From Methanomassiliicoccales archaeon PtaU1.Bin124 (GTDB lineage Archaea > Thermoplasmatota > Thermoplasmata > Methanomassiliicoccales > UBA472): a DNA stretch of 64,000 nt. The notes beneath the pieces are model-generated. The model did no database searches. It was not told where the DNA came from and worked only from the letters and a program-made list of their open reading frames with translations. Every line of letters begins with the position of its first letter. The first letter of the stretch is position 1. Position numbers and translations under genes: made by a program. The DNA lies in contig MVRC01000005.1 of assembly GCA_002067865.1 (NCBI GenBank), positions 1 to 64,000 on the forward strand. Direction: 5' to 3'. Positions 55,841 through 62,774 of this stretch are shown here, piece by piece.

Positions 55841-56005
55841 AGTCGTTTCCTCGAATGCCGAGAGGCATCTTAATTGGATTATTTAAAAGGTATAAAAGAT
55901 GCATCAGACCGAAATTACGCCTGGATTGCGGCACAGATACACATTGACCAGCATTCCGGCGGGTCAAGATTTATAAGCAGGGGAGGCTAACTCCCGACGC
56001 TCGAC

Positions 56006-57235
56006 ATGAAGAGGAGAACGATCGGAACGAAGGTGCCCAGCAGGGTCAAGTGGCTCATCCTGCTCACGGCCTTCCAGGCCATCGGCTATGGGTTCCTTAC
56101 CACGGCCATCTCGGCATACCTGCCGATGTTAGGGGTCAGTTCCGACCAGGTCGGTCTCATCATCGGCGCTTCGGGTGTGGCGATGATCCTTACCGCCATT
56201 CCCTTTGGGGTCCTATCCGACCGCATTGGAAGGAAGCGCATCCTGCTCTGGAGCCTCGTCGGCGTGCCGCCGGCCATGATCATCTGCGCCATATCCACGG
56301 ACCCGAGCGTGTTCCTCATCGCCACCATCATCGCTGGGATCTCCGACGGGGCCTTCCTGTCCACCTGGAACGCCATGATCGCCGACCAGACGAACGTGGA
56401 CAACCGGGACATGGCCTTCTCCTTATCGTTCACGGTGAACGGCGGGTTCAACGCCATCGGCCTTGCCCTTCCCCTGGCCTTCCCGTTGATCGAAGGGGCG
56501 TTCGGCATCAGCAGCATCGCCGTGCACGCGGACACGTTCCTTATCCTCGGGCTCATCACGCTCATCTCGCCAGTCACGATCTGGTACCTGCTTAAGGACT
56601 ACAAGGAGAAGGTCCCGGCTCCGAGGATGAAGGGTGCCTATCTCAGGCCCCGCAGCAGGAAGAACCTGATGAAGTTCAGCATCAACAACATGATGATCGG
56701 TCTGGGGGCCGGTCTGATCATCCCGCTCATACCGACCTGGTTCTATCTTGAGTATGGCATCGGCGACACGTATACCGGCCCGCTCCTGGCGGCCGCCAAT
56801 CTCTCCATCATCTTCGCCGTCATCTTCAGCACCCGGCTTTCCCACCGGGTGGGGGCGGTCAAGGCCATCGCCATTACCCAGGCGTCATCGACCATCTTCA
56901 TGGTGCTGATCCCGTTCATGCCCGGCGCTGGGCCGGCCGCTGCCGTCTATCTCATCCGCACGGCCCTGATGAACATGGGCGGGCCGATCATGGACTCCTA
57001 CTTCATGGGCATTGTGGACAAGGAGGACAGGGGGTTGGCCAGCGCGATCAATTCTATCGTGTGGAGGCTGCCCAACAGCGCCACGACGGTCATCGGCGGT
57101 CTGATGCTGACGTCCGGATACTACACATTGCCCTTCATCCTGGCGGCCACGGTCTACATCATCGCGGTATTGGCGTTCTACATCAACTTCCGGAACGTTA
57201 AGCCGAACGATGAGCCGACAGGGACAGCGTTATGA
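56006..57235 (+). CDS. MFS transporter
   Basis: A 409-residue, 12-TM major facilitator protein: GFLTTAISAYLPMLGVSSDQVGLIIGASGVAMILTAIPFGVLSDRIGRKRILL contains motif A (GVLSDRIGRKR). A charged central loop (KEKVPAPRMKGAYLRPRSRKN) separates the halves. The substrate is unknown. A TATA element (ATTTATAAG, 55969-55977) is about 32 bp before the ATG. It leads a run of five same-strand genes with gaps of 5-26 bp. Confidence 0.92.
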   Translation: MKRRTIGTKVPSRVKWLILLTAFQAIGYGFLTTAISAYLPMLGVSSDQVGLIIGASGVAMILTAIPFGVLSDRIGRKRILLWSLVGVPPAMIICAISTDPSVFLIATIIAGISDGAFLSTWNAMIADQTNVDNRDMAFSLSFTVNGGFNAIGLALPLAFPLIEGAFGISSIAVHADTFLILGLITLISPVTIWYLLKDYKEKVPAPRMKGAYLRPRSRKNLMKFSINNMMIGLGAGLIIPLIPTWFYLEYGIGDTYTGPLLAAANLSIIFAVIFSTRLSHRVGAVKAIAITQASSTIFMVLIPFMPGAGPAAAVYLIRTALMNMGGPIMDSYFMGIVDKEDRGLASAINSIVWRLPNSATTVIGGLMLTSGYYTLPFILAATVYIIAVLAFYINFRNVKPNDEPTGTAL

Positions 57236-57258
57236 GCCCGAAATCCCATTGAGCCTGC

Positions 57259-57963
57259 ATGGCGGAGAGGACACCGGACCCGTGGCGTTTTCAGCTCCAC
57301 ATGGAGATCGCCCGTCTGGCCGGCAAGGACACTGCAAGGCGCGTCGCTCCCTGCGAGGGGCCGGAATCCGTCTCCTCGGAAGAGGAGAACGTCGCTTGGA
57401 CGATCCACGCGATGAAGGGGATGGAGACCTACCTCAAAGAGGAAGAGAGCATCTCGGTGCTCCACAATTGCTCCCATACCCTTCCCGAGGCAAGGATCGT
57501 CGAGCTCAGGGACCACTTCAGGAAGAACCGGGACATCAGGTCCCTGCACCAATTATGGCAGAGGAGGTTCTTGGAGAACCTCGAGGCCCGATGGGGCCCC
57601 CTTCCGGATGAATGGGCCAGAACGGTGATCGACGAAGGCTGGGGGGAGGCTGGCAGGATCGACGGAAAGAGGATCATCGCCGCCAAGGTGCCCCAGGACC
57701 TGCCCGGATGGTTCCATGCTAAGACCGTCGAGGAGAAACGCCATGCATATTGCCATTGTTCCCGCATCAAACAGGTCTTCCTCATGAACGGGGAGAAGAT
57801 TCCAGCGGTCTACTGCAACTGCGGCGGGGGCTTCTACCGGTCCAATTGGGAACGGGTACTGGGCGTCCCTGTGAAGGTCACGGTGCGCTCGACCATAATG
57901 AAGGGCGACCCTTCCTGCTCCTTCATCATCACGCTGCCCGAAGGGGTCTGGTCGAAAGATTGA
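57259..57963 (+). CDS. Cysteine-rich conserved protein (DUF6144/ATC-hydrolase-like)
   Basis: A 234-residue soluble protein with conserved-looking cysteines: HNCSHTLPEARIVELRDHF, AYCHCSRIKQVFLMN, VYCNCGGGFYRSNWERVLGVPVKVTVRSTIMKGDPSCSFIITLPEG. The final pattern (WE-x-V-L-G-x-P-V then GD-x-C-x-F) is that of the L-2-amino-thiazoline-4-carboxylate hydrolase-like or DUF6144 group, a small-ligand fold related to V4R domains. This naming is from memory of the pattern and is tentative. It begins 23 bp after the MFS gene. Confidence 0.72.
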   Translation: MAERTPDPWRFQLHMEIARLAGKDTARRVAPCEGPESVSSEEENVAWTIHAMKGMETYLKEEESISVLHNCSHTLPEARIVELRDHFRKNRDIRSLHQLWQRRFLENLEARWGPLPDEWARTVIDEGWGEAGRIDGKRIIAAKVPQDLPGWFHAKTVEEKRHAYCHCSRIKQVFLMNGEKIPAVYCNCGGGFYRSNWERVLGVPVKVTVRSTIMKGDPSCSFIITLPEGVWSKD

Positions 57964-57989
57964 TACCGGGATAAAGGCTGGACGTCCTC

Positions 57990-58595
57990 ATGTCGGCCAC
58001 ACCCAAGGACCTCAGAGCACTGACGAGCAAGGCAGAGGAGATGGGGGCCTCGAAGGCGAGCACCATCCTGGCAAGCTCGGTCATTATGGACCCAAGGGTG
58101 GAGCTGAAATGCCGCATCCCCCTATGCCCCAACTATGGCCGCAGCCTCACGTGCCCTCCGAACGTGATAGGGCCAGAGCGTTTCGCACTGGCATTGGGCC
58201 GGTATTCTCATGCGGTCCTGGTGCAGAAGAGGTACGATCAGAAGGAGATGATGGCGATGCTCGCCACCACCCCATACCAGGAACTGGAATCATCGCCGGA
58301 GTACCTGGGTAGGATGAGGGGTATGTTCAAGGACTTCGCCGCTATCATGTCCGGGCTTGAGGGGGAGGCGATGAGGATGGGCTATCGGTTCGCGGCCGCG
58401 CTGGTGGGGGGGCCGTGCTGCCAATGCGATGAGTGCGCCAGCCCGGGCCAGAAGTGCCGCCACCCGTTTCAGGCAAGGCCCAGCATGGAGGCGATGGGGA
58501 TCGATGTGATCGCCACCGCAGCCTCCGCCCAGATGGCCATCGAATACCCGGCGAGGGACTATGCCACGTTGACCGGCCTGCTCTTGGTCGAGTGA
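57990..58595 (+). CDS. DUF2284 predicted metal-binding protein
   Basis: A 201-residue protein of the DUF2284 family: RVELKCRIPLCPNYGRSLTCPPNV near residue 40 and GGPCCQCDECASPGQKCRHPFQARPSMEAMGIDVIATA in the C-terminal half, giving two cysteine clusters that probably hold Fe-S centres or metal. The family is common in anaerobes and unassigned. It is in the MFS-led operon, 26 bp after the previous gene. Confidence 0.9.
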   Translation: MSATPKDLRALTSKAEEMGASKASTILASSVIMDPRVELKCRIPLCPNYGRSLTCPPNVIGPERFALALGRYSHAVLVQKRYDQKEMMAMLATTPYQELESSPEYLGRMRGMFKDFAAIMSGLEGEAMRMGYRFAAALVGGPCCQCDECASPGQKCRHPFQARPSMEAMGIDVIATAASAQMAIEYPARDYATLTGLLLVE

Positions 58596-58599
58596 TATC

Positions 58600-59058
58600 A
58601 TGAGGGTTTTCCTGGATTACTGCATGCTGAACGATGCCATGAGGGATGCCAGCGTCCTGGCGAAACTGAGGTTCATGCGCAAATCGGGGGTGGAGCTGGT
58701 CACCGCTACCAGCGTCATCGGCGAGGCGGTGGAGGTCCTGGCCGACGGACCGAAGGAAGGCCATTACGTTCTCATGGACCTGCTGCACGACCTGCACCTG
58801 CATTATGTCCATCCGCGCAAAGACTGGCTCAAGGACATGGCCCGGATCGATTCGTTCCTGGACGGCAAGAACGCTACTTTCGTTTCGGCCAGTGAGAGGA
58901 CGCACATGGCGTTGGCGATGTCCGCCGCGGCCGATATGTACATCACTTCCAGGGCAGAGGCTCGCAACCTTTCTATGCTGGTCGGGCTGAAGGAGATCCT
59001 CAACGTGGTCGATATCGATGATGCCGTGGCCAAGGTAAAGGCGGCCGGTGGAGCTTGA
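58600..59058 (+). CDS. PIN-domain-like protein, possibly catalytically degenerate
   Basis: A 152-residue protein with the PIN fold pattern: VFLDYCMLNDAM (first Asp), TATSVIGEAVEVLAD (Glu), a third region THMALAMSAAADMYITSRAEARNLSML in which the usual Asp before the helix appears as His, and a final strand ILNVVDIDDAV. Some acidic residues of an active PIN nuclease therefore look lost. No antitoxin gene is adjacent, arguing against a VapBC pair. It follows the DUF2284 gene by 4 bp. Confidence 0.65.
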   Translation: MRVFLDYCMLNDAMRDASVLAKLRFMRKSGVELVTATSVIGEAVEVLADGPKEGHYVLMDLLHDLHLHYVHPRKDWLKDMARIDSFLDGKNATFVSASERTHMALAMSAAADMYITSRAEARNLSMLVGLKEILNVVDIDDAVAKVKAAGGA

Positions 59059-59068
59059 GCGAGGTCCA

Positions 59069-60010
59069 ATGATACTTCGAAGAACGGCGCCCCAATGGAA
59101 GGTCATGTCCTGGGTGGGTTCCAAACCATTGAACCTTCAAGACCTTGCAGGAAAGGTGGTCGTGCTGAACTTCTGGACGGCCAGCCGGCTCGAGTGCGTA
59201 CGAGATCTGCAGAAGATCGTCGCGCTGAAGGAGAGGTTCCATGGCAGGCCGATCGAGTTCATCGGCATCCATTCCGCCGAGTTCGATTTCTGCAACGATG
59301 CGCACCGCCTGAAAGAGATTTGTTCACGTCTTGGGTTATCCTATCCTATCGGCATCGATAAGGCATTCTCCACCTGGACGGACTATGAGATCGAGATATG
59401 GCCGACCCAGCTCTTGATCGATGCGCATGGGGTCGTCCGGTTCATCCATGAAGGAGAGGGCGGCGAGGCCGAGCTGGAGGCGTGGGTGGTCCGGCTACTG
59501 AACGAGGTAGGGGCCAGGGATACGTTCGGGCCTCCTTCCTGCACCAGGAAACAGGTCGCCCCTCCGGAATATATCTTCTGCGGCGCGCTGAGGAACCAAG
59601 GCATCGGCAACGAACAGGAGGGCCATGCGTTCGAGGCGAGGGGGTTCGAGGACGATGGCGTGCATGAAAGGGGGGCCATCTACCTCGGTGGATGCTGGTT
59701 CCACGACCTTCAGTTCCTGCGCCACGAAGGGCGCGAGGCAGGGCATCTCGCTCTCCGTTTCAACTCATCCGATCTCTACCTGGTGCTGTCGGATGGCGCG
59801 TCCGATGTCATCTCCGTCACTTTGGATGGAGGACCATTGAAGAAGGAGCATGCTGGAAATGACATCTCCTTCAAGGATGGGAAAAGCATCATCATCGCCG
59901 ATCGAGACGGCCTCTACCACCTGGTGAGATCGAACGACAGGGCCGAGCACGAGATCCGACTGACCTTGGACAGCGATGCACCCTGCCTTTACTCGATAAT
60001 CTTGGCATGA
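59069..60010 (+). CDS. Thioredoxin/TlpA-like protein with C-terminal DipZ-like domain
   Basis: A 313-residue protein. Residues about 20-155 form a redoxin fold with the TlpA/DipZ-like entry VVVLNFWTASRLECVRDL. In relatives this is WTYSCINC, so the first active-site Cys is replaced by Arg and only the second Cys remains. Residues about 165-313 resemble the DipZ C-terminal beta-sandwich (GPPSCTRKQVAPPEYIFCGALRN, FEARGFEDDGVHERGAIYLGG, LYHLVRSNDRAEHEIRLTL). There is no signal peptide, so it acts in the cytoplasm. GAGGT before ATG 59069 sets the start. It is the last gene of the MFS-led operon. Confidence 0.8.
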   Translation: MILRRTAPQWKVMSWVGSKPLNLQDLAGKVVVLNFWTASRLECVRDLQKIVALKERFHGRPIEFIGIHSAEFDFCNDAHRLKEICSRLGLSYPIGIDKAFSTWTDYEIEIWPTQLLIDAHGVVRFIHEGEGGEAELEAWVVRLLNEVGARDTFGPPSCTRKQVAPPEYIFCGALRNQGIGNEQEGHAFEARGFEDDGVHERGAIYLGGCWFHDLQFLRHEGREAGHLALRFNSSDLYLVLSDGASDVISVTLDGGPLKKEHAGNDISFKDGKSIIIADRDGLYHLVRSNDRAEHEIRLTLDSDAPCLYSIILA

Positions 60011-60022
60011 GGACAAGCTTAA

Positions 60023-60048
60023 AATATGTTAGCAATCACTAACATATT
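60023..60048. promoter_or_regulatory. Palindromic operator upstream of tetR-like gene
   Basis: AATATGTTAG (60023-60032) and CTAACATATT (60039-60048) form a perfect 10-bp inverted repeat with a 6-nt spacer. It overlaps the TATA-like CTTAAAATAT and ends 6 bp before ATG 60055, the classic position for TetR self-repression. It is the best candidate binding site for the TetR-like product. Confidence 0.8.
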
Positions 60049-60054
60049 GGTCCC

Positions 60055-60672
60055 ATGGCACAGAGGAAGAAGAGCGGAGAAAGGCAGAAGGAGATTATTC
60101 TGGCAGCTGTCAAGATAATCGATAAGGACGGCATCCATGCGCTGACGTTGCAGAGCATCGCTAATGAGTTGGGCATAAGCGACGTGGCCTTGTTGCGTCA
60201 TTTCCGCTCCAAGGAAGAGATCGTCGAGGCCCTGGCACAGAAGGTCTTTTTCACAACCGTCATCACAGAGGACCCTTCCACCAATCATGATCTCGAAGCG
60301 TCGATCGAATCGCTGTTCAGGAGGCAGTTCTCTGAGTTCGAGGCTTGGCCTGAGGCCACATCGATCTTCTTCCATGAGGAGATATTCAGAGAATATCCAT
60401 CGGTGAGGGAGTGGTTTTTAGTTAGACGCACTGAGCGCCATCGCAGACTGGTCAGGATGGTCAAGGCCGGCCAGACGGCTGGTAAGGTCAGGAACGACCT
60501 GGATGCAGATATCTTCGCGACCGTTCTAATGGGCAGCATGAGGATGGCGGTCATGGAGTGGAGGGAGAGCGGGAGGAACGGCTCCCTCGTAGAAAAGGCG
60601 GCACCCATGGCGGACATGATGGCCAGGGCAATAGAGATAAAAAATGGGAGGTTGGAAAATGAAAGTAACTAG
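60055..60672 (+). CDS. TetR-family transcriptional regulator
   Basis: A 205-residue regulator with the TetR HTH at residues about 15-58 (ILAAVKIIDKDGIHALTLQSIANELGISDVALLRHFRSKEEIVEAL) and a variable all-helical ligand domain. The perfect palindrome just upstream implies self-regulation. Two small cupin genes follow, the first overlapping by 14 bp, so it probably controls all three. The inducer is unknown. Confidence 0.92.
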   Translation: MAQRKKSGERQKEIILAAVKIIDKDGIHALTLQSIANELGISDVALLRHFRSKEEIVEALAQKVFFTTVITEDPSTNHDLEASIESLFRRQFSEFEAWPEATSIFFHEEIFREYPSVREWFLVRRTERHRRLVRMVKAGQTAGKVRNDLDADIFATVLMGSMRMAVMEWRESGRNGSLVEKAAPMADMMARAIEIKNGRLENESN

Positions 60673-60997
60673 ATTACTGGACCTTGAGGACAGGAAGAAC
60701 CCTCACGGGGTGACCGTGAAGACGGTATATGACCACGACAGTGCTCAAGCGGTCCACATAACATTGGAGCCGGGCCAGGAGCTCAAGAGGCACGTGACCC
60801 CGGTGGACGTGTTCTTCTATATCCTTGAAGGAAAGGGGCAGGTCGAGATCGGAGACGAGGTGAGGGAGGTCGATAAGGATACCGTGGTCGACAGTCCAGC
60901 GAACATACCCCACCGCCTCATGAACCCCTTCAGGGAGACCATGAGGTTCCTCGTCGTGAAGGCGCCCAGGCCAGATGCGAAATCGAAGCTGTTGTGA
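60659..60997 (+). CDS. Cupin-domain protein 1
   Basis: A 112-residue single-domain cupin: AVHITLEPGQELKRHVTPVDVFFYILEGKGQVEIGDE, VDSPANIPHRLMNPFRETMRFLVVKAP. A metal-binding set of the family is partly present (RHVTPVD, PHRLMN). The start at ATG 60659 has GGGAGGT 8 nt upstream; the frame upstream is unlike protein. It overlaps the tetR-like gene by 14 bp. Confidence 0.88.
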   Translation: MKVTRLLDLEDRKNPHGVTVKTVYDHDSAQAVHITLEPGQELKRHVTPVDVFFYILEGKGQVEIGDEVREVDKDTVVDSPANIPHRLMNPFRETMRFLVVKAPRPDAKSKLL

Positions 60998-61010
60998 AGG
61001 AGAGATGGAA

Positions 61011-61373
61011 ATGGCAAAGGACGTGAGCGGAATGGTCGATCTGGAAGGAAAGAGGCCTGATCTGAGGGGAAAGGCATTGGTCACCAAGGACCTGCTCAAC
61101 TATCAGGAAGGGGCGGTGGTGTCACGCACACTGATCGACAAGAAGGTCGGCACGTTGACGGTGTTCTCGTTCGACGAAGGACAGGGTCTGAGCGAGCATA
61201 CCGCTCCCTATGATGCAACGGTCATGGTGCTGGACGGCCAGGTGGAGATCACCGTATCGGGGAATAAGAGCGTTCTCGAGGAGGGTGAGATGATGATAAT
61301 GCCCGCGAACGAACCTCACGCCCTTCGGGCATTGAAGCCGTTCAAGATGATGCTGATAATGATACGCGCCTAG
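61011..61373 (+). CDS. Cupin-domain protein 2
   Basis: A 120-residue single-domain cupin with the pattern GTLTVFSFDEGQGLSEHTAPYDATVMVLDGQVEITVSGNKSVLEEGEMMIMPANEPHALRALKPFKMMLIMIRA. The two His motifs (SEHTAPYDA and PHALRA) can bind a metal. AGGAG lies 8 nt before ATG 61011 and only 2 nt before ATG 61005, favouring the former. It is the third gene of the TetR operon; both cupins may act together in a small redox or stress response. Confidence 0.9.
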   Translation: MAKDVSGMVDLEGKRPDLRGKALVTKDLLNYQEGAVVSRTLIDKKVGTLTVFSFDEGQGLSEHTAPYDATVMVLDGQVEITVSGNKSVLEEGEMMIMPANEPHALRALKPFKMMLIMIRA

Positions 61374-61401
61374 GCCAGCAAGAACAAGTGAGAATGAATG
61401 G

Positions 61402-61474
61402 CGCCGTCGAGCGGGATCGAACCGCTGACCTTGTGATTAACAGTCACACGCTCTACCGACTGAGCTACGACGGC
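61402..61474 (-). tRNA. tRNA-Asn (GTT)
   Basis: A complete 73-nt cloverleaf. The acceptor GCCGTCG pairs with CGACGGC, with a G discriminator. The anticodon stem TGTGA/TCACA encloses CTGTTAA with anticodon GTT. The T-loop is GTTCGATCC. CCA is not encoded. Confidence 0.95.
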
Positions 61475-61498: not shown

Positions 61499-61840
61499 TC
61501 ATTTATTTATCGTTTGTCCCTTGGTCGCCTGCTTGTCCAAGGAGATGCGCAGCACGTTCACCGTCTGGTCCATCTTCATGAGAATCTCGTTCAGCTCATC
61601 GTAGAAGACCTGGACCTTATCTGTGGTGACGGCCCCTTCCGGCGAAGGGAGGATGAGACCTTCCTGTTCCAGAATTCGCAGGGAATATCTGACTTTGTGC
61701 TGGGGAATCCCCAACAGCTCTGACAGGCGGATGATGCCGATCGGTTCATGCGCCACGATGGTGTTGAGCATGGTGACATGGCGTTCCAGCAGGTGTATCT
61801 CCGACTCGATCTTGTTGGTCAGCGCACTCCTTCCCTTCAT
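61499..61840 (-). CDS. Winged-helix transcriptional regulator
   Basis: A 113-residue archaeal regulator with an N-terminal helix (NKIESEIHLLERHVTMLNTIVA), a winged HTH (GIIRLSELLGIPQHKVRYSLRILEQEGLILPSPEGAVTT) and a C-terminal helical segment for dimerisation. The HTH reads as a DNA-binding domain of the ArsR/PadR-like wing type. The target is unknown. It is divergent from the ABC transporter, so it may control it. Confidence 0.82.
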   Translation of the reverse strand: MKGRSALTNKIESEIHLLERHVTMLNTIVAHEPIGIIRLSELLGIPQHKVRYSLRILEQEGLILPSPEGAVTTDKVQVFYDELNEILMKMDQTVNVLRISLDKQATKGQTINK

Positions 61841-62030
61841 TTTTTCACCATTGGACGAATGACCCTCGGACCACCATGTTAAGTGTTATCATCGAGGCTG
61901 AGATGTGATGACATTTGATTATAATATTTCTTGTGTAACGTCTCCTGGCTTCTTCGAAGAACGTCGAAAAACATCGTTCCAGTTGCGAAACCTGTGACAT
62001 TCTCTGCAAGCGTTCTTCATCATGATGGCA

Positions 62031-62038
62031 TTAAATAG
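62031..62038 (+). promoter_or_regulatory. TATA box of the ABC transporter operon
   Basis: TTAAATAG is centred 27 bp before the GTG at 62061. The spacing implies a leaderless transcript starting at that GTG, which fixes the start of the ATPase gene downstream of the ATG at 62022. Confidence 0.55.
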
Positions 62039-62060
62039 CTCACCCAGGGATTGCGCCTGC

Positions 62061-62774
62061 GTGGCGGTCATAGAGGTCAGGGGATTAAGGAAAACGTACG
62101 GGAACTTCATTGCTCTGGACGACATCAATTTCCAGGTCAGGGAAGGCAGCTTCTTCGGCTGCTTTGGCCCGAACGGGGCCGGAAAATCCACTCTTCTTAA
62201 GATCCTCACCGGCCAGATCAACTCATCCGGTGGTCAGGCGAACGTGCTCGGGATCGACCCTGGAACCGATCCGTTGGGCGTGAAAAGGGTGATAGGCATC
62301 GTGCCGGAGGTCGAATCCCCCCCATCCTACCTGACCGCTACCGAGTTCCTGCAGTTCGTGGGCACAGTCCGCATGGTGGAGGACCTGGACAACAAGGTGT
62401 CCCACTGGCTGGAGGTTTTCGACCTGCAGAGCTCGGCCGGTACGTTATGCCGGGACCTTTCGAAGGGGATGAGGCAGAAGCTCATGCTTTCCGCTGCGTT
62501 CATCCATGAGCCCAAGGTCCTATTCCTGGACGAGCCTTTCATCAACCTCGACCCGATCTACCAGCGCAAGCTGAAGGACATCCTGCAGGAGCTCAAGGGC
62601 CAGGGGGTCACGATATTCCTCAATTCCCATATTCTTGACATCGCGCAGAAATTGTGCGATGAGTTCATCATCCTGAACAAGGGCAAGGTCGTCGCCTATG
62701 ACACCGCGCAGAACCTGCTGGCCAGGGGTGTGGACCTGGAGACGGAGTTCTTCAGGCTGGTGGAGAGCGGATGA
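62061..62774 (+). CDS. ABC transporter ATP-binding protein
   Basis: A 237-residue nucleotide-binding subunit. Walker A is GPNGAGKSTL, the Q-loop lies near VPEVESPPSYLTATEFLQF, the signature is LSKGMRQKL, Walker B is VLFLDEPFINLD and the switch His is in FLNSHILD. The DRA/CcmA-like pattern suggests an exporter. The leaderless GTG 62061 begins directly at AVIEVRGLRKTYG. It overlaps the permease by 4 bp (ATGA). Confidence 0.92.
   Translation: MAVIEVRGLRKTYGNFIALDDINFQVREGSFFGCFGPNGAGKSTLLKILTGQINSSGGQANVLGIDPGTDPLGVKRVIGIVPEVESPPSYLTATEFLQFVGTVRMVEDLDNKVSHWLEVFDLQSSAGTLCRDLSKGMRQKLMLSAAFIHEPKVLFLDEPFINLDPIYQRKLKDILQELKGQGVTIFLNSHILDIAQKLCDEFIILNKGKVVAYDTAQNLLARGVDLETEFFRLVESG

Follow-up and report, generated by a model that had tools for sequence, protein, structure and literature searches.

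A conserved exporter-DUF2284-PIN core within a five-gene run of a Methanomassiliicoccales archaeon

We analysed a run of five genes in DNA from Methanomassiliicoccales archaeon PtaU1.Bin124 (contig MVRC01000005.1, positions 1 to 64,000), and this whole stretch of 64,000 nucleotides is referred to as the window. The window's assembly consists of 18 contigs and carries mcrA, as do five relatives tested alongside (6/6), so the source organism is a methanogen. The run extends over 56006-60010 on the forward strand and contains five open, intact and tightly packed genes. They encode an exporter-type transporter of the major facilitator superfamily (MFS), a cysteine-rich protein (gene 2), a DUF2284 protein, a PIN-fold protein and a thioredoxin-like protein. 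A first-pass annotation had described five closely spaced genes here, and the measured gaps of 23, 26, 4 and 10 bp bear this out. The heptamer TTTATAA (55970..55976, forward strand), approximately 30 bp upstream of the MFS start codon, is presumably a TATA-like box, a resemblance to the consensus only. A promoter and terminator scan of the locus, of the sigma-70 type and thus unsuited to archaea, remained at chance level. Gene order, families, folds, active-site states and operator co-occurrence were established directly, and we hold the anatomy of the locus to be solid with high confidence. A literature search found no paper on an operon of these five gene types.

The MFS protein (56006..57235, forward strand, 409 residues) matches PF07690 (MFS_1) at 2.6e-41, with 142.1 bits against a cut-off of 33.4, and its earlier assignment to this superfamily stands. 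Its nearest solved sequences are the MFS transporter 3wdo and NorA, the similarity to NorA being weak, and in the profile search it also resembles Tet and multidrug models, all far under their cut-offs. Judged from these family resemblances, it would probably act in drug-type export. Synteny searches covered 147 genomes of the order, and all counts given here include the window's genome. MFS relatives at E up to 1e-30 occur in 28 of these genomes, and the orthologues within the genus are 65-68% identical. We notice that the orthologue matches of five of the 28 genomes (G002, G018, G020, G022, G023) contain one internal TGA or TAG each.

Gene 2 (57259..57963, forward strand, 234 residues) encodes a Cys-rich, V4R/H-NOX-like and DUF6144-like protein, inserted at this site in the window only. 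The first-pass annotation had called it an ATC-hydrolase-like Cys protein. It is indeed a Cys protein, with C165, H166, C167, C186, C188 and C220 conserved in 6/6 sequences, but no ATC-hydrolase model in Pfam or NCBIfam matched it at E up to 1, and the match to DUF6144 is below threshold (6.4e-05, 23.4 bits against a cut-off of 28.8). Comparison with the sequences of solved structures gave chance-level matches only. Its predicted structure (predicted local distance difference test, pLDDT, 88.6) matches mainly the H-NOX, Bet3/TRAPP and DmpR/MopR phenol-sensor folds, at weak scores (E 0.036 or worse, Z at most 7.7). We take the V4R, H-NOX, Bet3 and DmpR folds to form one superfamily. Most of the best fold matches fall in this group of sensors, and gene 2 differs from them in having its own Cys-rich site. 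A V4R-like role in binding a ligand or metal is a lead offered by the predicted fold.

The third gene (57990..58595, forward strand) encodes a predicted metal-binding protein of 201 residues. It matches DUF2284 (PF10050) over its full length at 1.9e-39, with 135.5 bits against a cut-off of 25, confirming the family named in the first-pass annotation. It shares the Cys pattern of this family, and its seven Cys are invariant in 12/12 sequences; the protein likely binds a metal or an iron-sulphur (Fe-S) cluster. The selenoproteins of ArsM/DUF2284 type carry a methyltransferase part, whereas the DUF2284 protein of the window stands alone. No match was found among the sequences of solved structures. 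An excerpt of one paper (PMC7883539) lists DUF2284 among gene clusters of Methanomassiliicoccales; in the excerpts of the literature that were available, the family receives single mentions, none of them concerning this locus.

The fourth gene (58600..59058, forward strand) encodes an orphan protein of 152 residues, for which neither the Pfam search nor the comparison with the sequences of solved structures gave a match. An AlphaFold model based on three orthologues (pLDDT 90.5) reveals a true PIN fold. Foldseek groups the model with VapC toxins, with TM up to 0.83 by target length, and VIA-align 2 superimposes it on VapC toxins with Z 16.7 and a root-mean-square deviation of 1.8 over 129 residues. 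Like the VapC/PIN-domain RNases, it has acidic residues in its N-terminal and middle parts, where such residues are expected, their placement being taken from the alignment and numbering rather than from a residue-level superposition. D6, E42, E99 and E120 are kept in 4/4 orthologues, three of them aligned and the fourth read from the pieces of a frameshifted gene in G130. A Glu replaces one catalytic Asp. The PDB titles name D7 and D98 of Shigella VapC, and D98 stands where the PIN protein has E99, a correspondence drawn from numbering and aligned ranges; two distant PIN paralogues (L019, L017) likewise have Asp at this position. Thus the altered acids that the first-pass annotation had reported are real to the extent of one Asp-to-Glu exchange. 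It had also held several components to be degenerate or binding-only; as far as the alignment tells, the PIN site has been altered, yet it is conserved and shows no decay. RohQ, a PIN-fold cyclodehydratase, is among the fold matches, so that the PIN fold alone is no proof of RNase activity. A VapBC toxin-antitoxin pair was considered and rejected; the PIN fold is present, but an adjacent antitoxin gene is absent: only 4 bp separate the gene from DUF2284, and 10 bp from the thioredoxin gene.

The thioredoxin gene (59069..60010, forward strand) closes the run. We placed its start at the ATG at 59069; the alternative GTG at 59048 would overlap the PIN gene. The protein of 313 residues consists of a TlpA-like domain (AhpC-TSA, PF00578, 2.7e-11) followed by Thioredoxin_10 (PF17991, 5.8e-12), and its nearest solved sequence is that of the C-terminal DipZ structure 2hyx (E 9.8e-32). 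The same order of domains is found in the C-terminal half of Mycobacterium DipZ (2hyx, 5cyy). In contrast to Mycobacterium DipZ, the window's protein has no hydrophobic segment, and a CcdA-like N-terminal membrane domain is absent from its 313 residues. As the first-pass annotation had noted, its first active Cys is Arg: the motif reads WTASRLEC, whereas all four family orthologues (G130, G131, G132, G134) have TYSC(I/V)NC. The active site is therefore RxxC instead of CxxC, and the WPxQ motif retains its Pro. With the nucleophilic Cys lost, the protein can hardly perform dithiol exchange. Six thioredoxin matches lie outside the order, and CxxC is present in the five motifs read (L124, L126-L129; L125 was unread). 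According to an excerpt of PMC2757866, the second Cys alone is kept in 7.6% of 4,082 thioredoxin-fold sequences, an example being the TxxC peroxiredoxin. The window's protein likewise keeps the C-terminal Cys of this cxxC enzyme, but its first position is Arg rather than Thr or Ser. Decay would be the simplest account of this state, and repurposing is the alternative.

Meanwhile, G131, G132, G133 and G134 also carry a DipZ-type paralogue without Cys at either motif position (L064 8282-10172, L065 4385-6269, L066 1660-3543, L067 7484-8356), at the same chromosomal site. This paralogue stands in tandem with a CxxC copy in three of the four genomes, and in the exception, G133, no second copy was found.

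We compared the gene order across the order by means of a neighbourhood map of 36 loci and the window, made with a codon-scored gene caller and tblastn. The mapped loci were picked for a close DUF2284 (35) or for thioredoxin (G134), and weaker DUF2284 paralogues were left out; because of this selection, the neighbours alone are informative. Relatives of DUF2284 occur in 98 genomes of the order, those of gene 2 in 11, and those of thioredoxin and of PIN in 6 each. The first-pass annotation had named, beforehand, missing conservation of the gene set as a result that would speak against it, and this is largely what was found: the complete five-gene set is present in 1/147 genomes, namely the window's own. 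One conserved five-gene system is thereby ruled out. What is conserved is a core of three genes. MFS, DUF2284 and PIN are consecutive in the window and in the remaining two members of the genus, G135 and G136 (3/3 genus genomes), and they also stand together in G130, of a neighbouring genus, at a contig end. Their order persists across the genus and this second genus at about 41-70% identity. Thioredoxin directly follows PIN in the map only in the window and G130, and the sisters G135 and G136 gave no thioredoxin match. The nearest relative of gene 2 (41%, G001) lies in a different neighbourhood.

On the other hand, a winged-helix gene is found near DUF2284 in 32/35 mapped DUF2284 loci (33/36 of all loci), usually with an ABC (ATP-binding cassette) pair behind it, and the genes between DUF2284 and the winged-helix gene vary by lineage. 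From this frequency, DUF2284 looks like an old resident of the site, beside a winged-helix-tRNA-ABC neighbourhood. In the window, this order-wide anchor includes the winged-helix protein of 113 residues (61499..61840, reverse strand), an ABC ATPase named by eye from the sequence (62022-62774, forward strand) and its membrane partner, which runs from 62771 onward on the forward strand to 64000, where the window end cuts it. The membrane partner has no Pfam match, and both ABC genes are assigned to the anchor by synteny. A tRNA-Asn (gtt) gene (61399..61474, reverse strand) marks the cluster boundary.

Directly 3' of the run lies a further unit that the first-pass annotation had overlooked, together with its palindrome-bearing promoter. 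The gap of 44 bp between the thioredoxin gene and a TetR-family regulator (60055..60672, forward strand; PF00440, 2.7e-12) holds an operator-like palindrome with 10-bp arms and a 6-bp spacer (60023..60048, forward strand). TetR heads this next unit and is followed by two small cupins of Cupin_2 type identified by Pfam and by comparison with relatives, cupin 1 (60674..60997, forward strand), whose start was picked by that comparison, and cupin 2 (61005..61373, forward strand). In relatives, the unit has the order TetR-(NapH-like Fe-S protein)-cupin-cupin, with TetR first; the gene of the NapH-like Fe-S membrane protein is missing between TetR and cupin 1 (60672-60674) in the window, and also in G136.

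A palindrome of similar kind was present in 9/9 TetR promoters read. The pattern GTTAGYWAKYRMTAACW, derived from these nine promoters, was searched in 22 family genomes and gave 13 matches in 10 of them, with none for the reversed control. Two of the matches are both strands of a single palindrome in G136, two lie inside coding genes (in G000:C6, within a heliorhodopsin gene, and in G143:C13), and the remainder precede TetR. The ten genomes that encode this TetR (the window's, G135, G136, G137, G139 and G142-G146) all have the pattern before it, and the pattern is absent from the 12/12 genomes without it. As the pattern was drawn from promoters already read, the independent evidence consists of its absence in the 12 TetR-less genomes and of the tenth locus, G143:C46. 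Within the window there is only one such site, at TetR. We infer that TetR would autoregulate a separate TetR-cupin-cupin unit. TetR/TetA and NorA-type pumps are examples of TetR-regulated drug-efflux loci. The window resembles them in having a drug-type MFS near TetR and an operator-like site at TetR's own promoter, but here TetR and the pump are co-directional, not divergent, and the pump promoter has no such site. We considered TetR as a shared switch of all five genes and rejected it.

The heliorhodopsin gene itself (PF18761, 2.1e-96; L139 7559-8338) adjoins an ArsA-type ATPase in the window's assembly. Heliorhodopsin exceeds the cut-off in 38/147 genomes of the order, including the window's, and reaches E up to 0.001 in 39; a literature search found no paper combining heliorhodopsin with Methanomassiliicoccales. 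As to the run, an anti-phage defence system was also considered and ruled out, with 0/8 proteins matched by PADLOC models at E up to 0.001.

The best reading of the run is a lineage-built patchwork on the order-wide neighbourhood of DUF2284, helix-turn-helix (HTH) and ABC genes, rather than a dedicated five-step pathway. For the core, we tentatively favour a single stress-relief function of exporter, DUF2284 and PIN, at somewhat less than an even chance; co-transcription of the run and a shared function are what we infer here. The drug-type MFS exporter would be co-transcribed with the DUF2284 Cys protein, which likely binds a metal or Fe-S cluster, and with an orphan PIN-fold RNase. Most likely, the exporter would expel a small toxic or redox-active compound, and the metal- or ligand-binding proteins would bind or sense the same compound. 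The window's genome seems to have put the V4R/H-NOX-like Cys protein between exporter and DUF2284, and to have retained at the 3' end of the run a DipZ-type thioredoxin minus its nucleophilic Cys. The run ends at the promoter of the separate, presumably autoregulated TetR-cupin-cupin unit, which includes the NapH-like protein in several relatives. Three observations weigh against this reading. The MFS promoter bears no operator site in the window's genome (G000), G135 or G136. In the genus g7, the MFS orthologue (63-66%) is located elsewhere and DUF2284 has no adjacent PIN, which shows that the exporter can occur apart from DUF2284. In G130, the gene of the PIN orthologue is split over two frames (L002 2200-2700), by a frameshift that is either real or an assembly error. 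Nearly as likely is an inherited neighbourhood without any shared task, in which DUF2284 is the old resident by the HTH-tRNA-ABC block and the other genes were added lineage by lineage. The recurrent winged-helix gene, the lineage-specific genes in between and the single genome with all five genes speak for such chance and inheritance, whereas the order of MFS, DUF2284 and PIN, held in every genus member and in a second genus at about 41-70% identity, speaks against it.

The remaining accounts are much less probable. The first-pass annotation had proposed an unassigned thiol or metal pathway of cooperating, binding-only enzyme forms, possibly a new system. The run does combine a one-Cys thioredoxin with two Cys-rich proteins, but neither gene 2 nor thioredoxin is present in the two sister genomes, both of which retain the core, and a real active-site loss affects one protein only. 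Its claim of several degenerate or binding-only parts finds no support outside thioredoxin: the acids of PIN, the Cys of DUF2284 and the Cys-rich set of gene 2 are all conserved. With the full set in a single genome and a conserved core of three genes, it is unlikely that the five genes together form a new pathway, and we consider the proposal as a whole improbable. We give no greater weight to a redox- or ligand-responsive module, in which the V4R/H-NOX-like Cys-metal sensor, the DUF2284 Fe-S protein and the one-Cys thioredoxin would govern the PIN RNase and the exporter; there, thioredoxin would have taken on a new role, as a partner that binds or that resembles a peroxiredoxin, with the TetR/NapH-like/cupin stress unit adjoining. 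Slightly less probable is that PIN, as an RNase of VapC type, slows down translation during stress, with the other genes as passengers: the VapC-like fold (Z 16.7) and the four conserved acids fit this, but no antitoxin gene accompanies PIN, which lies 4 bp from DUF2284, and Glu replaces one catalytic Asp. As for a sequencing or assembly error behind RxxC, the assembly of 18 contigs comes with no reads for checking, but the Arg codon CGG is two changes away from the Cys codons TGC and TGT, which rules out a single-base error, and adjacent motif residues differ as well (WTASRLEC against WTYSCINC); we regard such an error as highly improbable.

These comparisons show the thioredoxin lost to different degrees: one relative has it intact, the sisters lack it altogether, and here half of its site is gone. 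A further stage is seen in three more genomes, where the Cys-free paralogue accompanies an intact copy in tandem. To our knowledge, the ways in which methanogens of the Methanomassiliicoccales type handle toxic compounds are poorly understood. A TetR with a recognisable operator-like site and two cupins, with an Fe-S membrane protein in relatives, beside an exporter, DUF2284 and PIN, would offer a concrete and testable stress locus in this group.

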